Source: Psychromonas sp. SP041 (GTDB lineage: Bacteria; Pseudomonadota; Gammaproteobacteria; Enterobacterales; Psychromonadaceae). Taken from it: a DNA stretch of 62,106 nucleotides. Made by a program: the position numbers and the translations under genes. The notes under the pieces were generated by a model, which saw only the letters and a program-made list of their open reading frames with translations, made no database searches and had not been told where the DNA came from. The stretch lies in contig NZ_CBRF02000029.1 in the NCBI RefSeq assembly GCF_000470315.2, positions 1 to 62,106 on the forward strand, written 5' to 3'. Shown here piece by piece: positions 32,280 through 38,009 of the stretch (position 1 is the stretch's first letter; each line of letters starts with the position of its first letter).

Positions 32280-32304
32280 CGCTCATACTCGACATCCATG
32301 TATC

Positions 32305-33148
32305 GAAATAAGCTAGCAACGGCAAAGGGCACGCAGAGGTTAGCTCGCTCATTGTATTATGCTGTCCCATAATTAGCTCTATGCCTTTACTTGCTGAAGT
32401 CAACAATTGATTCAGAAAAACTCAACGGGAGAGTTGTCGCAGCCACATTGAGTTTCGTATTATATTGTTAACTAATTGATATAATTAAATTTATAAAGTG
32501 ACTGTCCAACACTTTTCGGTGGATAGACTGAATCCGTCAGGATCTGGTTTTTTTGGTTTCTCTTTAGCACTGTTTAGGTTTACTTTAGTTCGTCTACGCT
32601 CGTCAGGGCATTATTATATTGATCAACAGTGTTTTCGCCCTGTCGGCGACATACTTTTTCTTACCAGAAGAATAAAGTAAGCAAAAAGACTGGCTCCCAA
32701 TTCATTTTTTAATCTGAATAAATTACTGCCTTCTAAACGCACCGTTCATACGGCGCGTCCATGCGCCGAGCTGAACTAGCAACGGCATCCATGCCTTAAG
32801 CTTGCTGAAGTCAGTAATTGATTCAGAAAAAAATCAACGGGAGAGTTGTCGCTGCCACGTTGAGTTTCGCGTTGTATTGTTAACTAATTGATAAGGTTGG
32901 GCTTATAAAGTGGCTGTCCAACACTTATGTCTCGAAATTAGCTAGCAACGGCTAAGGGCACGCAGAGCTTAGCCCGCTCATTGCACTATGCTGTCGCATA
33001 ATTCGCTCCATGCCTTAAGCTTGCTGAAGTCAGCAATTGATTCAGAAAAACTCAACGGGAGAGTTGTCGCTGCCACGTTGAGTTTCGCGTTGTATTGTTA
33101 ACTAATTGATAAGACTGGGCTTATAAAGTGACTGTCCAACACTTTATT
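32305..33148. repeat. Three-copy hairpin-rich dispersed repeat (R1-R3)
   Basis: A ~200-bp unit occurs at about 32305-32505, 32780-32925 (shortened) and 32930-33148. Shared blocks are CTAGCAACGGC, TTGCTGAAGTCA, the hairpin ACTCAACGGGAGAGTTGTCG...CGTTGAGT, TTGTTAACTAATTGATA and AAGTGACTGTCCAACACTT. Nearly every block is self-complementary (for example GGCTAAG/CTTAGCC and TTGCTGA/TCAGCAA). There is no coding capacity. A reversed relative of the CTCAACG hairpin lies at ~37738. The element family is unknown to me. Confidence 0.75.
32589..32776 (+). repeat. Left copy of an inverted dispersed repeat
   Basis: This segment contains GTTTTCGCCCTGTCGGCGAC and the hairpin GTTCATACGGCGCGTCCATG. It matches the reverse complement of 37822-38009 with scattered differences. 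The two copies face each other around the gene array at 33162-37530. They could be independent insertions of a common repeat or the arms of one unit. Confidence 0.75.
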
Positions 33149-33161
33149 TCCAAAATTTTAT

Positions 33162-33202
33162 TGGTGTGGGGGCTGGAGGTTAGATACCTCCGGCTACCCG
33201 AT
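33162..33202 (+). mobile_element. Group II intron 3' tail, shortest copy (E)
   Basis: TTGGTGTGGGGGCTGGAGG begins in the 3' strand of domain V and continues through domain VI to CCGAT. It matches the last ~41 bases of the long repeats at 33883-36902. Everything upstream of mid-domain V is missing, so this end of the array is truncated. It lies directly against the stop codon of the LysE gene. Confidence 0.85.
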
Positions 33203-33840
33203 TAGCCGTTTTTTATGAAAGCTAGTTTTGAGCCAAAAGCAATAAAAACGACTCCTGTAATTGAGTTTAACCACACTTTAAACTTTGCTCCACTTGTAAT
33301 GCCTTTAACTTTTGAAAGCATTATAATCATCATTGAAAACCATAAAAAATTAACAATTGCATGAGTAGTAACTAGAGTATATGCACTGAGTGCTGTTTCA
33401 CTTGCAGGCATAAATTGTGGAAATGCAGCTAAATAAAACATTGATACTTTGGGGTTTAATACATTGGTTAGAAAACCTTCAAAAAAGGCTATGCGCATTG
33501 AAGTGTTTTTGCTGAAGCTTTGATGAGTATTTTCAGTAGAGCTTTCAGTTTGCTTGAAAGCACCAATAATCGCTTTAATACCAATCCAAATTAAGTAAGC
33601 CGCACCTAACATTTTAAAGATAAAAAATGCTTGAGCAGATTGAACTAATAGCACAGAAATACCAAAAATTGATAGAGTGCCATGCACATAAAATGCTGCT
33701 ACGAATCCCCATATATTAGCAAAACCTGCTTTCCTACCTGAAACAGGAACAGTTTTTGCTATAAGGAACCCGTTAGGTCCAGGTGAAACAACAAGTAATG
33801 TGGCTACTGCTATAAAAGTTAAAATATTATTTATATCCAT
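33202..33840 (-). CDS. LysE/RhtB-family amino-acid exporter (cassette gene 1)
   Basis: This gene encodes 212 aa with about six transmembrane helices. The family signature is at the N-terminus (VVSPGPNGFLIAKTVPVSGR), with FLTNVLNPKVSMFYLAAFPQF in the middle. Members export amino acids such as homoserine, threonine or lysine; the substrate is unknown here. The ATG at 33840 is preferred over one at 33846 because GGAG then has proper spacing. The TAA stop lies inside ACGGCTAAT, the complement of GTTAGCCGT on the 5' side of the gene, so the ORF fills its cassette-like unit completely. Confidence 0.88.
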   Translation of the reverse strand: MDINNILTFIAVATLLVVSPGPNGFLIAKTVPVSGRKAGFANIWGFVAAFYVHGTLSIFGISVLLVQSAQAFFIFKMLGAAYLIWIGIKAIIGAFKQTESSTENTHQSFSKNTSMRIAFFEGFLTNVLNPKVSMFYLAAFPQFMPASETALSAYTLVTTHAIVNFLWFSMMIIMLSKVKGITSGAKFKVWLNSITGVVFIAFGSKLAFIKNG

Positions 33841-33882
33841 ATACATCTCCTATTTTAAAATGATGAACCTATAAAGACGGCT

Positions 33883-34293
33883 AACAGCTTTATTAACTCA
33901 CAAAATGTCATTTTAACGGTGAAAAAACGACAAGAGTTAATGATTAAAATATTATTATTACTTTACGTTCATTTATCTATAAAACAAAGAGATATAGTTC
34001 ACTTGTGAATTTCTAATCATCTAAAAACGTGGGATGTTGCAATATTTACGGTGGAAATACTGCAGGTGAGAGAGATATCAAAAAAGTTTTGGACTGCCAT
34101 TCATTGAAGTTAGTTCGAAAACCAAAGGGATCAATATAGCGATCAGTAATGCGTTTTTAGCCAGACAAGGTTTGATATCATTAAAGGATTTGTGGATTAA
34201 TATTCACTATTAATCATAAGATGAACCTTCCTGTGCGGAGCCGCATGCAGGTTGGTGTGGGGGCTGGAGGTTAGATACCTCCGGCTATCCGAT
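33883..34293 (+). mobile_element. Composite repeat A: attC-like hairpins plus group II intron 3' end
   Basis: Order on the plus strand: AACAGCTTT; hairpin 1 (ATTAACTC 33892-33899 / GAGTTAAT 33934-33941); hairpin 2 (34038-34064, TGCAATATTT/AAATACTGCA around ACGGTGG). A 42-codon remnant then ends FLARQGLISLKDLWINIHY-stop (34085-34213), as expected for the C-terminus of an intron-encoded reverse transcriptase. Domain V follows from ~34228, then domain VI ending CTATCCGAT. In this copy the catalytic triad region reads ACCTTCC instead of ACCGCCC, so this domain V is damaged. Confidence 0.8.
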
Positions 34294-34302
34294 TAGGTGA
34301 AT

Positions 34303-34761
34303 TTATACTTGTACCATATAGAAACAGTTTTCCAGTGGAATTTCTTCCGGATAATCAGCCATAAAAAAGCCAAGTTTTGTATAAGCTTGAATTGCACTTT
34401 TATTGTGCCCTAATACAAATAGTGAGCATGAATCAGTTTTTAACTCTGTTTTACCCAGAACACCCAACTTTTGTATTAAGTGGGAAGCGATACCTTGCCC
34501 GCGAAAATTAGGGTTAACAATTAATCGACCAAGATGACACTTATCAAGTCTTAGATAATATTGCCCAAATGCCAATAAATTTCCTTCAACCGAAACCAGA
34601 GAGAATGACTTTAGTGAATCAAGTTTTAAGTCACTCTTAAAAGAACTTAAATCAAATGGATATCTAAAACCAGGTCCAGACCAAATACTTAATTCTTCCT
34701 CGGTCGAAAACCAAGACATGATTTCAATAAAATTTGCATCAGAAGGTTGATTTAAACGCAT
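34303..34761 (-). CDS. GNAT-family N-acetyltransferase (cassette gene 2)
   Basis: This gene encodes 152 aa. The acetyl-CoA-binding core is recognisable as LGRLIVNPNFRGQGIASHLIQKLG (motif A, R/QxxGxG/A), followed by LFVLGHNKSAIQAYTKLGF (motif B). The substrate is not predictable. The ATG at 34761 is chosen; a GTG two codons earlier lies in the boundary box. The unit is bounded by ATTAGGTGAAT on the left and ATTCACCTAAC on the right, perfect complements over ten bases. Gene-private inverted boundaries are the signature of a cassette. Confidence 0.82.
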   Translation of the reverse strand: MRLNQPSDANFIEIMSWFSTEEELSIWSGPGFRYPFDLSSFKSDLKLDSLKSFSLVSVEGNLLAFGQYYLRLDKCHLGRLIVNPNFRGQGIASHLIQKLGVLGKTELKTDSCSLFVLGHNKSAIQAYTKLGFFMADYPEEIPLENCFYMVQV

Positions 34762-34769
34762 ATTCACCT

Positions 34770-35178
34770 AACAGCTTTATTAACTCACAAAATGTCATTT
34801 TAACGGTGGAAAAACGACAAGAGTTAATGATTAAAATATCATTATTACTTTACGTTGGTTTATCGATAAAACAAAGAGATATAGTTCACTTGTGAATTTT
34901 TAATCATCTAAAAGCGTAGGACGTTGCAATATTTACGGTGGAAATACTGCAGGTGAGAGACATATCACAAAATTTTTGGATAGCCATTCATTGAAATTAG
35001 TTCGAAAAATAAAGGGATCAATATAGAGATCAGTAATGCGTTTTTAGCCAGACAAGGTTTGATATCATTAAAGGATTTGTAGATTAATATTCACTATTCA
35101 TCATAAGATGAACCGCCCTGTGCGGAGCCGCATGCAGGGTGGTGTGGGCTGGAGGTTAGATACCTCCGGTTACCCGAT
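34770..35178 (+). mobile_element. Composite repeat B: attC-like hairpins plus group II intron 3' end
   Basis: This has the same structure as repeat A. The reverse-transcriptase remnant has two in-frame TAG codons in this copy. Domain V is intact (ACCGCCCTG/CAGGGTGGT). The linker to domain VI is two G shorter (GTGGGCTGG) than in copies A, D and E. Confidence 0.8.
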
Positions 35179-35188
35179 TATACAAATT

Positions 35189-35611
35189 TTAACAATGTGT
35201 GAATATCGCATTTTTAACTTGATTGATTAACTCATCAAAGTCTTCTCTAGACTTTCTATTTTTATCTATTGAACCACGATTACCAGATATCTTAGTTATA
35301 AAAAGTGTATATTTTGCGCGTAACATAAAACCTAAAAAGAAAAATAAAAGCATACAACTAGCGCTTATATATTCTTGTGCATTCTCAACGCCAGAGATGG
35401 AAAATAATACCGTAAACAAAAAGCCAGGCATAAAAGAGAATACAAGCCCCCAAAAACTTAATGTTAAACCTGCAATACACTTTTGCTTAAATTGAGCTTC
35501 AACAACTTCTAAATCTGCAATGTTTTTTAGGTTTTCTGTATGCCCCTGATAACTAAAACTTTCATTTGTTAGTTTATACTTTCCTTTTTGGTACAGCACT
35601 TCATCGGTCAT
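35189..35611 (-). CDS. Small membrane protein, cassette gene 3 (first copy)
   Basis: This gene encodes 140 aa. A soluble N-terminal segment with the pattern YQKGKYKLTNESFSYQGHTEN is followed by two hydrophobic helices (about residues 47-72 and 80-98) and a basic, polar tail. The layout resembles DUF6232-type membrane proteins, but I am not certain of the family and assign no function. The ATG at 35611 follows AAGGAT. The cassette boundaries are ATTATACAAAT (35177-35187) and ATTTGTATAAC (35624-35634), complementary over ten bases. The protein is identical to that of the copy at 36050-36472. Confidence 0.75.
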   Translation of the reverse strand: MTDEVLYQKGKYKLTNESFSYQGHTENLKNIADLEVVEAQFKQKCIAGLTLSFWGLVFSFMPGFLFTVLFSISGVENAQEYISASCMLLFFFLGFMLRAKYTLFITKISGNRGSIDKNRKSREDFDELINQVKNAIFTHC

Positions 35612-35631
35612 CAAATATCCTTATTTGTATA

Positions 35632-36039
35632 ACAGCTTTATTAACTCACAAAATGTCATTTTAACGATGGAAAAACGACAAGAGTTAATGATTAAAATAT
35701 TATTATTACTTTACGTTGGTTTATCGATAAAACAAAGAGATATAGTTTGCTTGTGAATTTTTAATCATCTAAAAGCGTGGGACGTTGCAATATTTACGGT
35801 GGAAATACTGCAGGTGAGAGACATATCACAAAAATTTTGGACAGCCATTCATTGAAGTTAGTTCGAAAAATAAAGGGATCAATATAGCGATCAGTAATGC
35901 GTTTTTAGCCAGACAAGGTTTGATGTCATTAAAGGATTTGTGGATTAATATTTACTACTCATCATAAGATGAACCGCCCTGTGCGGAGCCGCATGCAGGG
36001 TGGTGTGGGCTGGAGGTTAGATACCTCCGGCTACCCGAT
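35632..36039 (+). mobile_element. Composite repeat C: attC-like hairpins plus group II intron 3' end
   Basis: It is closest to copy B (same short GTGGGCTGG linker) but keeps an open reverse-transcriptase tail (GQPFIEVSSKNKGINIAIS). Domain V is intact. Confidence 0.8.
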
Positions 36040-36049
36040 TATACAAATT

Positions 36050-36472
36050 TTAGCAATGTGTGAATATCGCATTTTTAACTTGATTGATTAACTCATCAAA
36101 GTCTTCTCTAGACTTTCTATTTTTATCTATTGAACCACGATTACCAGATATCTTAGTTATAAAAAGTGTATATTTTGCGCGTAACATAAAACCTAAAAAG
36201 AAAAATAAAAGCATACAACTAGCGCTTATATATTCTTGTGCATTCTCAACGCCAGAGATGGAAAATAATACCGTAAACAAAAAGCCAGGCATAAAAGAGA
36301 ATACAAGCCCCCAAAAACTTAATGTTAAACCTGCAATACACTTTTGCTTAAATTGAGCTTCAACAACTTCTAAATCTGCAATGTTTTTTAGGTTTTCTGT
36401 ATGCCCCTGATAACTAAAACTTTCATTTGTTAGTTTATACTTTCCTTTTTGGTACAGCACTTCATCGGTCAT
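36050..36472 (-). CDS. Small membrane protein, cassette gene 3 (second copy)
   Basis: The encoded protein is identical to that of 35189-35611. By eye the coding sequences differ by a single synonymous base in the last codon (TGC versus TGT). The duplicated unit also includes the flanking repeat. Its 5' boundary reads ATTTTTATAAC, one base different from the other copy, while the 3' boundary ATTATACAAAT is unchanged. This indicates very recent duplication of a whole cassette or repeated capture of the same one. Function is unknown. Confidence 0.75.
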   Translation of the reverse strand: MTDEVLYQKGKYKLTNESFSYQGHTENLKNIADLEVVEAQFKQKCIAGLTLSFWGLVFSFMPGFLFTVLFSISGVENAQEYISASCMLLFFFLGFMLRAKYTLFITKISGNRGSIDKNRKSREDFDELINQVKNAIFTHC

Positions 36473-36491
36473 CAAATATCCTTATTTTTAT

Positions 36492-36902
36492 AACAGCTTT
36501 ATTAACTCACAAAATGACATTTTAACGGTGGAAAAACGACAAGAGTTAATGATTAAAATATTATTATCACTTTACGTTCATTTATCTATAAAACAAAGAG
36601 ATATAGTTCACTTGTGAATTTTTAATCATCTCAAAGCGTGGGGCGTTGCAATATTTACGGTGGAAATCCTGCAGGTGAGAGACATATCGCAAAAGTTTTG
36701 GACAGGCATTCATTGAAGTTAGTTCGAAAAATAAAGGGATCAATTTAGCTATCAGTAATGCGTTTTTAGCCAGACAAGGTTTGATCTCATTAAAGGATTT
36801 GTGGATTAATATTCACTATTCATCATAAGATGAACCGCCCTGTGCGGAGCCGCATGCAGGGTGGTGTGGGGGCTGGAGGTTAGATACCTCCGGCTATCTG
36901 AT
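36492..36902 (+). mobile_element. Composite repeat D: attC-like hairpins plus group II intron 3' end
   Basis: This is the best-preserved copy for the intron. Domain V spans 36834-36865: ACCGCCCTG pairs with CAGGGTGGT, the upper stem TGCGG-loop-CCGCA is present, and the two-base TG bulge lies on the 3' side. The triad is CGC. Domain VI spans 36866-36902 with a GGAGGT/ACCTCC stem and an unpaired A about 8 bases before the 3' end (CTATCTGAT). The upstream intron domains I-III and most of the reverse transcriptase are absent. Confidence 0.82.
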
Positions 36903-37504
36903 TATGGCTGTGTTTCTAGTGCAGACATAGAATCAAGCCTCAACTTAATCGCTTGAGCTAATTTCTTAGAGTGATAGTGATAATTAACTGATATTTGGTC
37001 AAACTCTCTTTTTGCTACTTCGGCTAGTTGGTCAGTCGATTTGATACTGTCACCCGTTGCTAATAATTGCATCAATTTGAAAGATGACTTATGACAAGTT
37101 AGAGCACTTTCATAAACTTCATTATCGATAAATGGATAAACATTATTCGTAAGAGCGCCTAAATCACAACGCATTTCATGAAGAGTTTGGAAAGTTAAGT
37201 ACAATTTTTCAGGATCATTTACTCTTTTAATGGCAGAGGACATCAATGAAGAAATTTCACTTGTAGCCTCCCATATTTTGCGGTAACGAGAAAATTCGAA
37301 TTCAGCTTGCTCTCGATTAATGTGAACAACTGGCTCATTTTGAGCAGCTAATACTGACAACTTTGAGTCGACCAATTCTTTGAGTTTTGTAGTTTCTTTG
37401 GTTTCAATGCGTTTAGTCGCTATAGCGCCCAAAAATGCACATAATCCCATTAAAATAACGTTACCTTCAAAATATACAAAGAGATCTTTTAATATCTCGA
37501 ACAA
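36902..37504 (-). CDS. N-terminally anchored helical protein of unknown function (cassette gene 4)
   Basis: This gene encodes 200 aa. One N-terminal transmembrane segment (about residues 14-30, GNVILMGLCAFLGAIA) is followed by KRIETKETTKLKELVDSKLS and a ~160-residue, almost wholly alpha-helical domain. No catalytic motif is visible and I do not recognise a family. The start is TTG at 37504, seven bases after GGAG. The TAA stop overlaps the boundary box GCCATAAT. The 5' box is GTTATACC, so the two boundaries match over only five bases, less well than for the other cassettes. Confidence 0.7.
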   Translation of the reverse strand: MFEILKDLFVYFEGNVILMGLCAFLGAIATKRIETKETTKLKELVDSKLSVLAAQNEPVVHINREQAEFEFSRYRKIWEATSEISSLMSSAIKRVNDPEKLYLTFQTLHEMRCDLGALTNNVYPFIDNEVYESALTCHKSSFKLMQLLATGDSIKSTDQLAEVAKREFDQISVNYHYHSKKLAQAIKLRLDSMSALETQP

Positions 37505-37533
37505 TTATTATCTCCTAATTAAGGTATAACAGT

Positions 37534-37605
37534 GTAACTAAGCCTAATTATTCCGTATTTACGGCGGAAATACGGAATAGTTTAATTTGATAAATTAGAG
37601 GTTAC
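37534..37605. other. attC-like cruciform upstream of cassette gene 4
   Basis: A 72-base imperfect palindrome has nested stems: GTAAC/GTTAC, CCTAATT/AATTAGAGG with one bulge, and a perfect TTCCGTATTT/AAATACGGAA around the apical loop ACGGCGG. Length and shape fit an integron attC site, and TATAAC abuts it (rc GTTATA). The apical motif TTTACGGCGGAAA recurs, as TTTACGGTGGAAA, in all four long repeats. A weaker relative lies at 37681-37708 (ATATTTACGGCAGAAACAC). Confidence 0.5.
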
Positions 37606-37821
37606 TTTAGTGTAATAAAGCATTAAATCAATCAATTAAATAAAAACATAAAACCTTTCTCATGTGGAAAGGCGGAAAAATTCTATATTTACGGCAGAAA
37701 CACGGAATTGAGTTTTCTGTAGATAATAAAATATTACTCAACGCGGCCACAATTCTCCACCGTTGAGCTTTCCCAAGCAATGAATACCTTTCAGCAACAG
37801 CAAACAGGACGTTTGCTGTAA

Positions 37822-38009
37822 GTTCATTCGGCGCATGGACGCGCCGTATGAACTGGTGCGTTAAGAAAGGTATTTATTGATTGGATTAGAAAGCGATTCG
37901 GTGTCAGTTTCTTTGCCTACTTTCTTTTCTGATAAAAGAAAGTAGAGTCGCCGACAGGGCGAAAATACTGCAATTAATAATCTAAATGCCACAACGAGCG
38001 AAGACGAGT
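37822..38009 (-). repeat. Right copy of an inverted dispersed repeat
   Basis: This is the reverse-complement counterpart of 32589-32776. The hairpin GTTCATTCGGCGCATGGACG is followed by GTCGCCGACAGGGCGAAAAT. Just left of it the nested stems ATACCTTTC/GAAAGGTAT and AGCAAAC/GTTTGCT make a cloverleaf-like palindrome over ~37783-37874. Confidence 0.75.

Follow-up and report, generated by a model that had tools for sequence, protein, structure and literature searches.

The window analyzed here, a whole stretch of 62,106 nucleotides, is contig C29 (NZ_CBRF02000029.1) of Psychromonas sp. SP041 (G000; assembly of 4.8 Mb in 121 contigs), and it contains an array of five genes whose spacers combine sequence resembling an integron attachment site (attI) with the 3' end of a group II intron. 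Twenty-four genomes of the family, all of the single genus Psychromonas, formed the comparison set. Five open reading frames (ORFs) on the minus strand (33202-33846, 34303-34767, 35189-35614, 36050-36475 and 36902-37504) alternate with four direct repeats of about 412 bp each and a short stub, and both the ORFs and the repeat matches bear out the alternation of genes with ~410-bp repeats described in the initial annotation. The repeats (33882-34295, 34769-35180, 35630-36041 and 36491-36904) matched a reference copy at 94-97% across 300 nt, and the stub is a 45-nt match to the repeat at 33161-33205. Each repeat is composite: the gene-proximal ~182 nt correspond to the 3' end of the intron, and the other ~200 nt are a homologue of attI and the leader of the integron integrase gene, intI. 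The attI-type parts were scored with R1, a sequence model of 24 attI-type modules (module A; alignment A1). From its distal end to its head, the array contains the following features.

33162-33202, plus strand: stub, the final ~41 nt of the intron, at the distal array end
33202-33846, minus strand: cassette 1, LysE-type translocator (PF01810)
33882-34077, plus strand: hybrid site 1, attI-type half (R1 model)
34111-34293, plus strand: hybrid site 1, intron 3' tail; two mismatches in the domain V stem (by eye), no Rfam match, reverse transcriptase (RT) tail by tblastn
34303-34767, minus strand: cassette 2, GNAT acetyltransferase (PF00583)
34769-34964, plus strand: hybrid site 2, attI-type half (R1 model; copy in the R1 training set)
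34998-35178, plus strand: hybrid site 2, intron 3' tail (RF00029)
35189-35614, minus strand: cassette 3, 141-aa protein, no Pfam or PADLOC match
35630-35825, plus strand: hybrid site 3, attI-type half (R1 model)
35859-36039, plus strand: hybrid site 3, intron 3' tail (RF00029); mosaic, breakpoint at site positions 318-324
36050-36475, minus strand: cassette 4, 141-aa protein, the same protein as cassette 3
36491-36686, plus strand: hybrid site 4, attI-type half (R1 model)
36720-36902, plus strand: hybrid site 4, intron 3' tail with RT tail, domain V and domain VI (RF00029, 42.6 bits)
36902-37504, minus strand: cassette 5, 200-aa protein, no Pfam or PADLOC match; poor end match (6/9)
37527-37740, plus strand: attI-type site at the array head (crossover TAAC at 37527); cassettes read away leftward, no intI after it

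Intron and attI halves of the spacers

Domains V and VI, which the initial annotation had placed in each repeat, were recovered by RF00029 (group II intron, Rfam) in three of the four full copies, at 36833-36902 with 42.6 bits, above the 40-bit cut-off, and at 35972-36039 (35.2 bits) and 35111-35178 (33.9 bits), both below it; copy 1 was not matched. DNA folding of 36833-36902 gave two hairpins (z -3.9). The RT-like tail reported alongside these domains was likewise found in three copies. When the open Vibrio albus intron RT (448 aa) was the tblastn query, GINIAISNAFLARQGLISLKDLWINIHY in copy 1 and the equivalent stretches of copies 3 and 4 corresponded to residues 411-444, with matches spanning 33-34 residues near the C-terminus, and copy 2 had no match at E≤1e-3.

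The intron part is oriented opposite to the cassette genes, as had been noted, and lies at the position known for introns of the IIC-attC type. In Shewanella, Vibrio albus, Colwellia and Marinomonas, the same 3' end lies immediately after an open intron RT (433 to 464 aa). In L154, L162 and L167 (the last from the Psychromonas relative G020), the intact intron 5' end GTGTACGCCCAGC directly follows an attC that ends in TTGT (L154 and L162) or ATGTT (L167); the 3' flank is TARRRY-like in L154 and L162, and the L167 intron stops at the contig end. Since the window tails end in C(C/T)GAT and are followed by the TA of the cassette, the insertion position corresponds to the known one. Judged by these comparisons, a 5'-truncated IIC-attC intron has left its 3' end exactly at the R'' position of the cassette. 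Only the last 41-183 nt of the intron are present in the window, with neither a complete ribozyme nor a complete RT. Forty-six tails, chosen by their domain V/VI end, ranged from 40 to about 700-800 nt in length.

No parent intron was detected in G000 with the maturase model PF08388, which gave no match in the genome, and the RT on C27 (the lone PF00078 match in G000) was rejected as the parental RT at just 29% identity to the intron RT over 168 residues. Plasmid records matching the hybrid numbered 357, none with 80% coverage of it; the ten listed of these cover the intron tail only (query positions 231-414). Truncated tails with a common but different 5' partner were observed in Shewanella hanedai (L142, L147 and L157) and S. 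nanhaiensis (L158), which suggests that other genera may have composite sites as well.

The other half of each repeat begins with TAACAGC at the crossover and resembles, over up to ~180 nt, the region from TAAC to the intI start in several Psychromonas genomes (BLAST; alignment A1). The head site at 37527 is ~71% identical to the intI leader in L107 (same locus as L174) and L123. Within the window, R1 reached 94-109 bits at five positions, namely the four repeats and the array head (37527-37708, 109 bits); its training set included two of these five modules (copy 2 and the array head) and eight intI leaders. The module lies just upstream of intI at at least 14 loci, within about 65 nt at 13 of them and 413 nt away at one, and the intI is full-length at 10 (two with one in-frame stop).

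The initial annotation had regarded the spacers as attC-like hairpins. R2, an attC covariance model from 12 canonical Psychromonas attC, gave 0 matches in the window at E≤5, although it found the attC 5' exons of all three introns with intact 5' ends (L154, L162 and L167), which were outside its training set; its attC counts were 13 in G000, 74 in G010 and 82 in G006. The covariance models thus recovered the group II intron and not attC, and an attC identity of the spacers was rejected on the homology to intI leaders and the null result of R2. The second half of the spacers is instead a homologue of attI and the intI leader. The earlier proposal of a 5'-truncated intron that became fixed in the recombination site and is copied with the cassettes holds for the truncation and the copying, but the site is of the attI type. 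The attI is identified by homology to intI leaders only. A cluster of at least two attC without intI (CALIN) does not describe the array, in which R2 found 0 attC. The attC is replaced by attI sequence that reaches the crossover, and as attI-intron hybrids the spacers are closest to the "ΔattI-type" unusual cassettes.

Cassette ends, turnover and integrase genes

To evaluate cassette boundaries, the nine bases that follow each tail were compared with the reverse-complemented sequence adjoining AC at the opposite gene end. Cassettes 1-4 of the window scored 8, 9, 9 and 8 of 9, which is the R'/R'' matching of a complete integron, and cassette 5 scored 6 of 9. Among the 46 intron-tail sites of the Psychromonas loci analyzed, 26 matched at 8 or more of the 9 bases, compared with 4.6% of shuffles. 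From the attI side, the same level was reached by 36 of 61 modules (77 modules minus 16 without TAAC or with <600 nt on that side), 22 of them preceded by attC (TTGT; shuffle rate 3.7%) and 14 by intron (CGAT; shuffle rate 0.4%); these counts are not independent, because orthologous loci of related genomes are included. The end matching and a polar turnover between two genomes agree with the initial annotation in treating the genes as cassettes.

The locus between a gene for a TPR protein and nspC is also found in G016 and P. arctica (G003). G016 shares the LysE and GNAT cassettes and their hybrids with G000 (33162-35180, 98.9%); the similarity breaks at the R'' boundary at 35180, and the attI-proximal cassettes differ, those of G016 encoding an AbiH-like protein, a DUF4145 protein, a 140-aa protein and Shedu SduA. 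The P. arctica locus contains one hybrid, one further tail, other genes and an insertion element, and none of the window cassettes. An empty site, with nspC adjoining the TPR gene, was observed in G013, G017, G020 and G021, an attI remnant lies between the two genes in G014, and attI is also present at the locus in G016, G003 and G023. The turnover at the attI end, as read from these alignments, appears to match integron behaviour. The AbiH-like and Shedu SduA cassettes of G016 (L072, 7354-11573) are likely anti-phage genes.

The array lacks an integrase gene, as stated in the initial annotation: none of the 10 matches to PF00589 (tyrosine recombinase) in G000 is on C29, and no intI lies beside the attI. 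In the 1.5 kb downstream of nspC (24 genomes, two loci shorter), just two weak matches to other tyrosine recombinases were detected (L179, 31%; L194, 21%). The term integrase-less applies to the locus but not to the genome, where two intI genes are present in damaged form and a further one as a stub. The intI on C22 is an open frame without the first ~29 residues, with a foreign stretch between, the intI on C7 has one stop and a split N-terminus, and C44 carries the N-terminal stub. At about 262-522 of the C22 locus (L042), a ~260-nt stretch with inverted ends interrupts the intI region after about 30 codons, and the intI of G016 on C1 likewise lacks the first ~29 residues in its open frame. 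Contigs C22 and C7 stop close to the leader, and the assembly may therefore lack arrays from these places. The strain may carry an intact intI elsewhere; the assembly yielded no undamaged one, which makes it probable that the array is at present frozen in G000.

attI-type modules elsewhere in the genomes

R1 gave 206 matches in 20 of the 24 genomes, including 26 in G000. The search of this genome for further copies, intI and a parent intron, as outlined in the initial annotation, thus recovered 26 attI-type modules and damaged intI genes but not the parent. The 77 modules studied were picked non-randomly from strong matches and intron loci. Sixty-four start exactly with TAAC; an ORF starts within 150 nt and reads away in 61, and an ORF reads toward the module in 15. 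A restriction of module A to intI contexts was rejected, since just 9 of the 77 have intI sequence alongside, on the other (right) side. In the attC-rich genomes G006 (82 attC) and G010 (74), modules were few (6 and 3), and G000 has 26 modules and 13 attC. There may be opposite lifestyles, attC-rich vs. module-rich, within one integron family.

TwoAYGGAY RNA (RF01731) flanks the array as an inverted pair, at 32697-32842 on the minus strand and 37761-37896 on the plus strand. In a scan of 75 of the 77 modules, 17 had this RNA within 600 nt on the non-cassette side and same strand, and 0 had it within this distance on the opposite strand or on the side of the cassette. The four genomes without modules are also without TwoAYGGAY. 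Left of the array, at 32298-33147, the window contains direct repeats of 90-126 nt, and similar sequence is present in G016. Promoter-like sites (16, shuffle mean 20.0) and terminator-like sites (3 vs. 2.6) were no commoner than in shuffles, so we make no promoter claim.

Sites with TAAC followed by GAGGCTGTAGAAT (C4, L074, L079 and L086) were considered as another att type and rejected. In L079 and L086 this sequence is a short element with inverted ends, inserted beside an attC start, and in C4 and L074 it belongs to a second composite type, one that includes an intron tail. At the latter loci (L022 on C4 of G000, and L074 in G016), the cassette end consists of a fragment starting TAACGAGGCTGTAGAAT, a stretch termed X and an intron tail, repeated between cassettes.

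Origin of the hybrid sites and relation to known cassettes

We read the array as an intI-less integron platform, in which an attI-type site (37527) is followed by five cassettes and the attC of each has been replaced by an attI-intron composite. The composite would consist, in order, of R'', the 3' tail of a 5'-truncated IIC-attC intron, a short linker and a copy of attI and leader that ends at the G^TTA crossover. The sequence evidence leads us to give this reading, with the composite order and the route proposed below, a probability of about 0.65.

Several observations weigh against it. Because R1 was trained on window modules and intI leaders, its scores there are no independent proof, and 13 of 23 full-length intI matches have no upstream module among the modules listed. 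The consensus of the modules by RNAalifold contained zero base pairs. Since sites with the module far outnumber those with intI, the module could be a dispersed repeat that includes attI. Twenty of the 46 tail sites, including that of cassette 5, fell under 8 of 9 in the end match, 25 of the 61 modules had no match at ≥8 of 9, and the intact 3' ends of the 46 tails are an effect of their selection by domain V/VI. The mosaic site described below is suggestive only, being the best of 360 possible related-copy triples.

The history of the hybrids is recorded in their junctions. One junction and linker are common to ten hybrids (five in G000, four in G016 and one in G003; two with deletions). Differing joints of attI and tail, with stretch X between, occur on C25 (attI positions 1-113, E 1.4e-15) and C5 (positions 1-46, E 3.6e-5), and 12 of the 46 tails are fused to attI-type sequence. 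Hybrid site 3 of the window (G000_h3) equals G016_h2 at 16 consecutive diagnostic sites and then G016_h3 at 5, with a breakpoint at 318-324, inside the intron tail (0 of 500 permutations). The mosaic suggests homologous recombination in the tail, with tails as homology handles.

A sequence of events can be proposed on this basis. IIC-attC introns would insert at the R'' of a cassette attC, an insertion seen in the relatives that keep both intron ends, and truncated tails would build up, probably via incomplete reverse transcription. An illegitimate event would then join one tail to a copy of attI. With tails as direct-repeat homology, RecA-type recombination between the tail of a new cassette and that of a hybrid could remove the intervening DNA and leave the new gene on the attI-bearing hybrid. 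IntI, in trans or in an ancestor, would add cassettes at the attI end, as the polar turnover suggests. The structure of the hybrids is well supported, and we infer the homology-handle mechanism from it. We advance only tentatively the wider proposal that truncated tails are handles that make captured cassettes attI-ended and that attI has multiplied into dozens of intI-less platforms per genome, with one or few cassettes and often capped by TwoAYGGAY.

One alternative is fusion without later exchange, in which tandem orphan attI-cassette units would be joined by deletions from a tail to the next leader. Short series of attI modules do exist (four in 6.5 kb on C24 of G023), and attI and tail are joined in three different ways, in one case judged from a 46-nt attI match (E 3.6e-5). 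However, a single junction is common to ten copies from three species (two with deletions) although they are attached to different genes, which calls for exchange after fusion, and we consider this explanation unlikely. Retrotransposition, in which a trans-acting intron RT would have inserted a chimeric attI-intron RNA at several R'', fits the precise 3' junction at R'', the 5' truncation and the occurrence of more than one 5' partner. It predicts an attC remainder between attI and the next gene, but the attI of the hybrids adjoins the following cassette at the crossover, and the mosaic breakpoint within the tail is also unfavourable; its probability is low.

The spacers might also be attC with a truncated intron fixed inside, moving as ordinary attC cassettes. 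The tail at R'', its opposite orientation and the end matching fit this view, and an attC too divergent for R2 could hide in the repeat. R2 found no attC in the window, though it found the positive controls, and the rest of each spacer shows homology to the intI leader, making this origin quite improbable. Ordinary tandem duplication of gene and repeat is suggested by cassettes 3 and 4, which encode the same 141-aa protein, and we retain it for these two. The remaining genes are unrelated by product and the turnover between G000 and G016 occurs at a cassette boundary, on which grounds duplication was rejected for the whole array, where it has hardly any probability.

Under the favoured reading of an intI-less platform with attI-intron composites, the closest known counterparts are the ΔattI-type unusual cassettes of class 1 and 2 integrons, in which, according to the available text of PMC12901181 (citing Partridge 2009), attI replaces the attC downstream of the gene; a complete attI1-aadB-attI1 unit is reported there to be excised by IntI1 at 100%. 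The window shares with these the attI sequence in place of attC after the gene, and differs from that description in the ~200-bp attI piece, the joining through an intron tail, the row of different genes and the chromosomal, marine, intI-less platform. The IIC-attC introns of cassette arrays (S.ma.I2, and the truncated UHB.F1 of PMC7923331) resemble the window tails in the TTGT/T position, the opposite orientation and the 5'-truncated copies; the truncated copies given in the text seen of PMC7923331 are one IIC-attC intron (UHB.F1) and two IIB introns in one CALIN. In contrast to the arrays of that account, the tail in the window recurs as a common component of the site and is fused to attI. 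Clusters or singles of attC without intI (CALIN and SALIN), as portrayed for Shewanella in the part of PMC9229058 consulted, resemble the Psychromonas loci in having cassettes far from intI and scattered through the genome, whereas an attI-type site heads the window array (and many scattered units) and no attC was detected in the array.

IIC-attC introns have been proposed to join gene and site in cassette formation, and in the model of Léon and Roy, as outlined in the same text of PMC7923331, the joining occurs by homologous recombination between intron copies, as in the proposal made here. The two differ in that the joined site here would be attI, not attC, and in that the truncated intron would be unable to self-splice because domains are missing. 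Composite attI-intron sites and Psychromonas attI arrays were unreported in the literature searched, which covered titles and abstract openings and lay mostly outside subscription journals. The attI-intron hybrids, serving as cassette ends in an intI-less platform, appear to be a new form of unusual cassette, ΔattI-type and intron-invaded.

A question in the study of cassette formation is how a gene and its integron recombination site come together. The tails lie exactly at the joint of gene and site in several species and with different genes, and one breakpoint lies within the intron, so the proposal of IIC-attC introns as joiners becomes testable. The scattered attI-type sites suggest that capture platforms spread without an integrase, and attC-based searches would probably miss such arrays. 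If this is true, capture sites would form a dispersed, retroelement-assisted network on which the integrase acts in trans. The array itself is a natural case in which to study the assembly and exchange of gene cassettes by bacteria.

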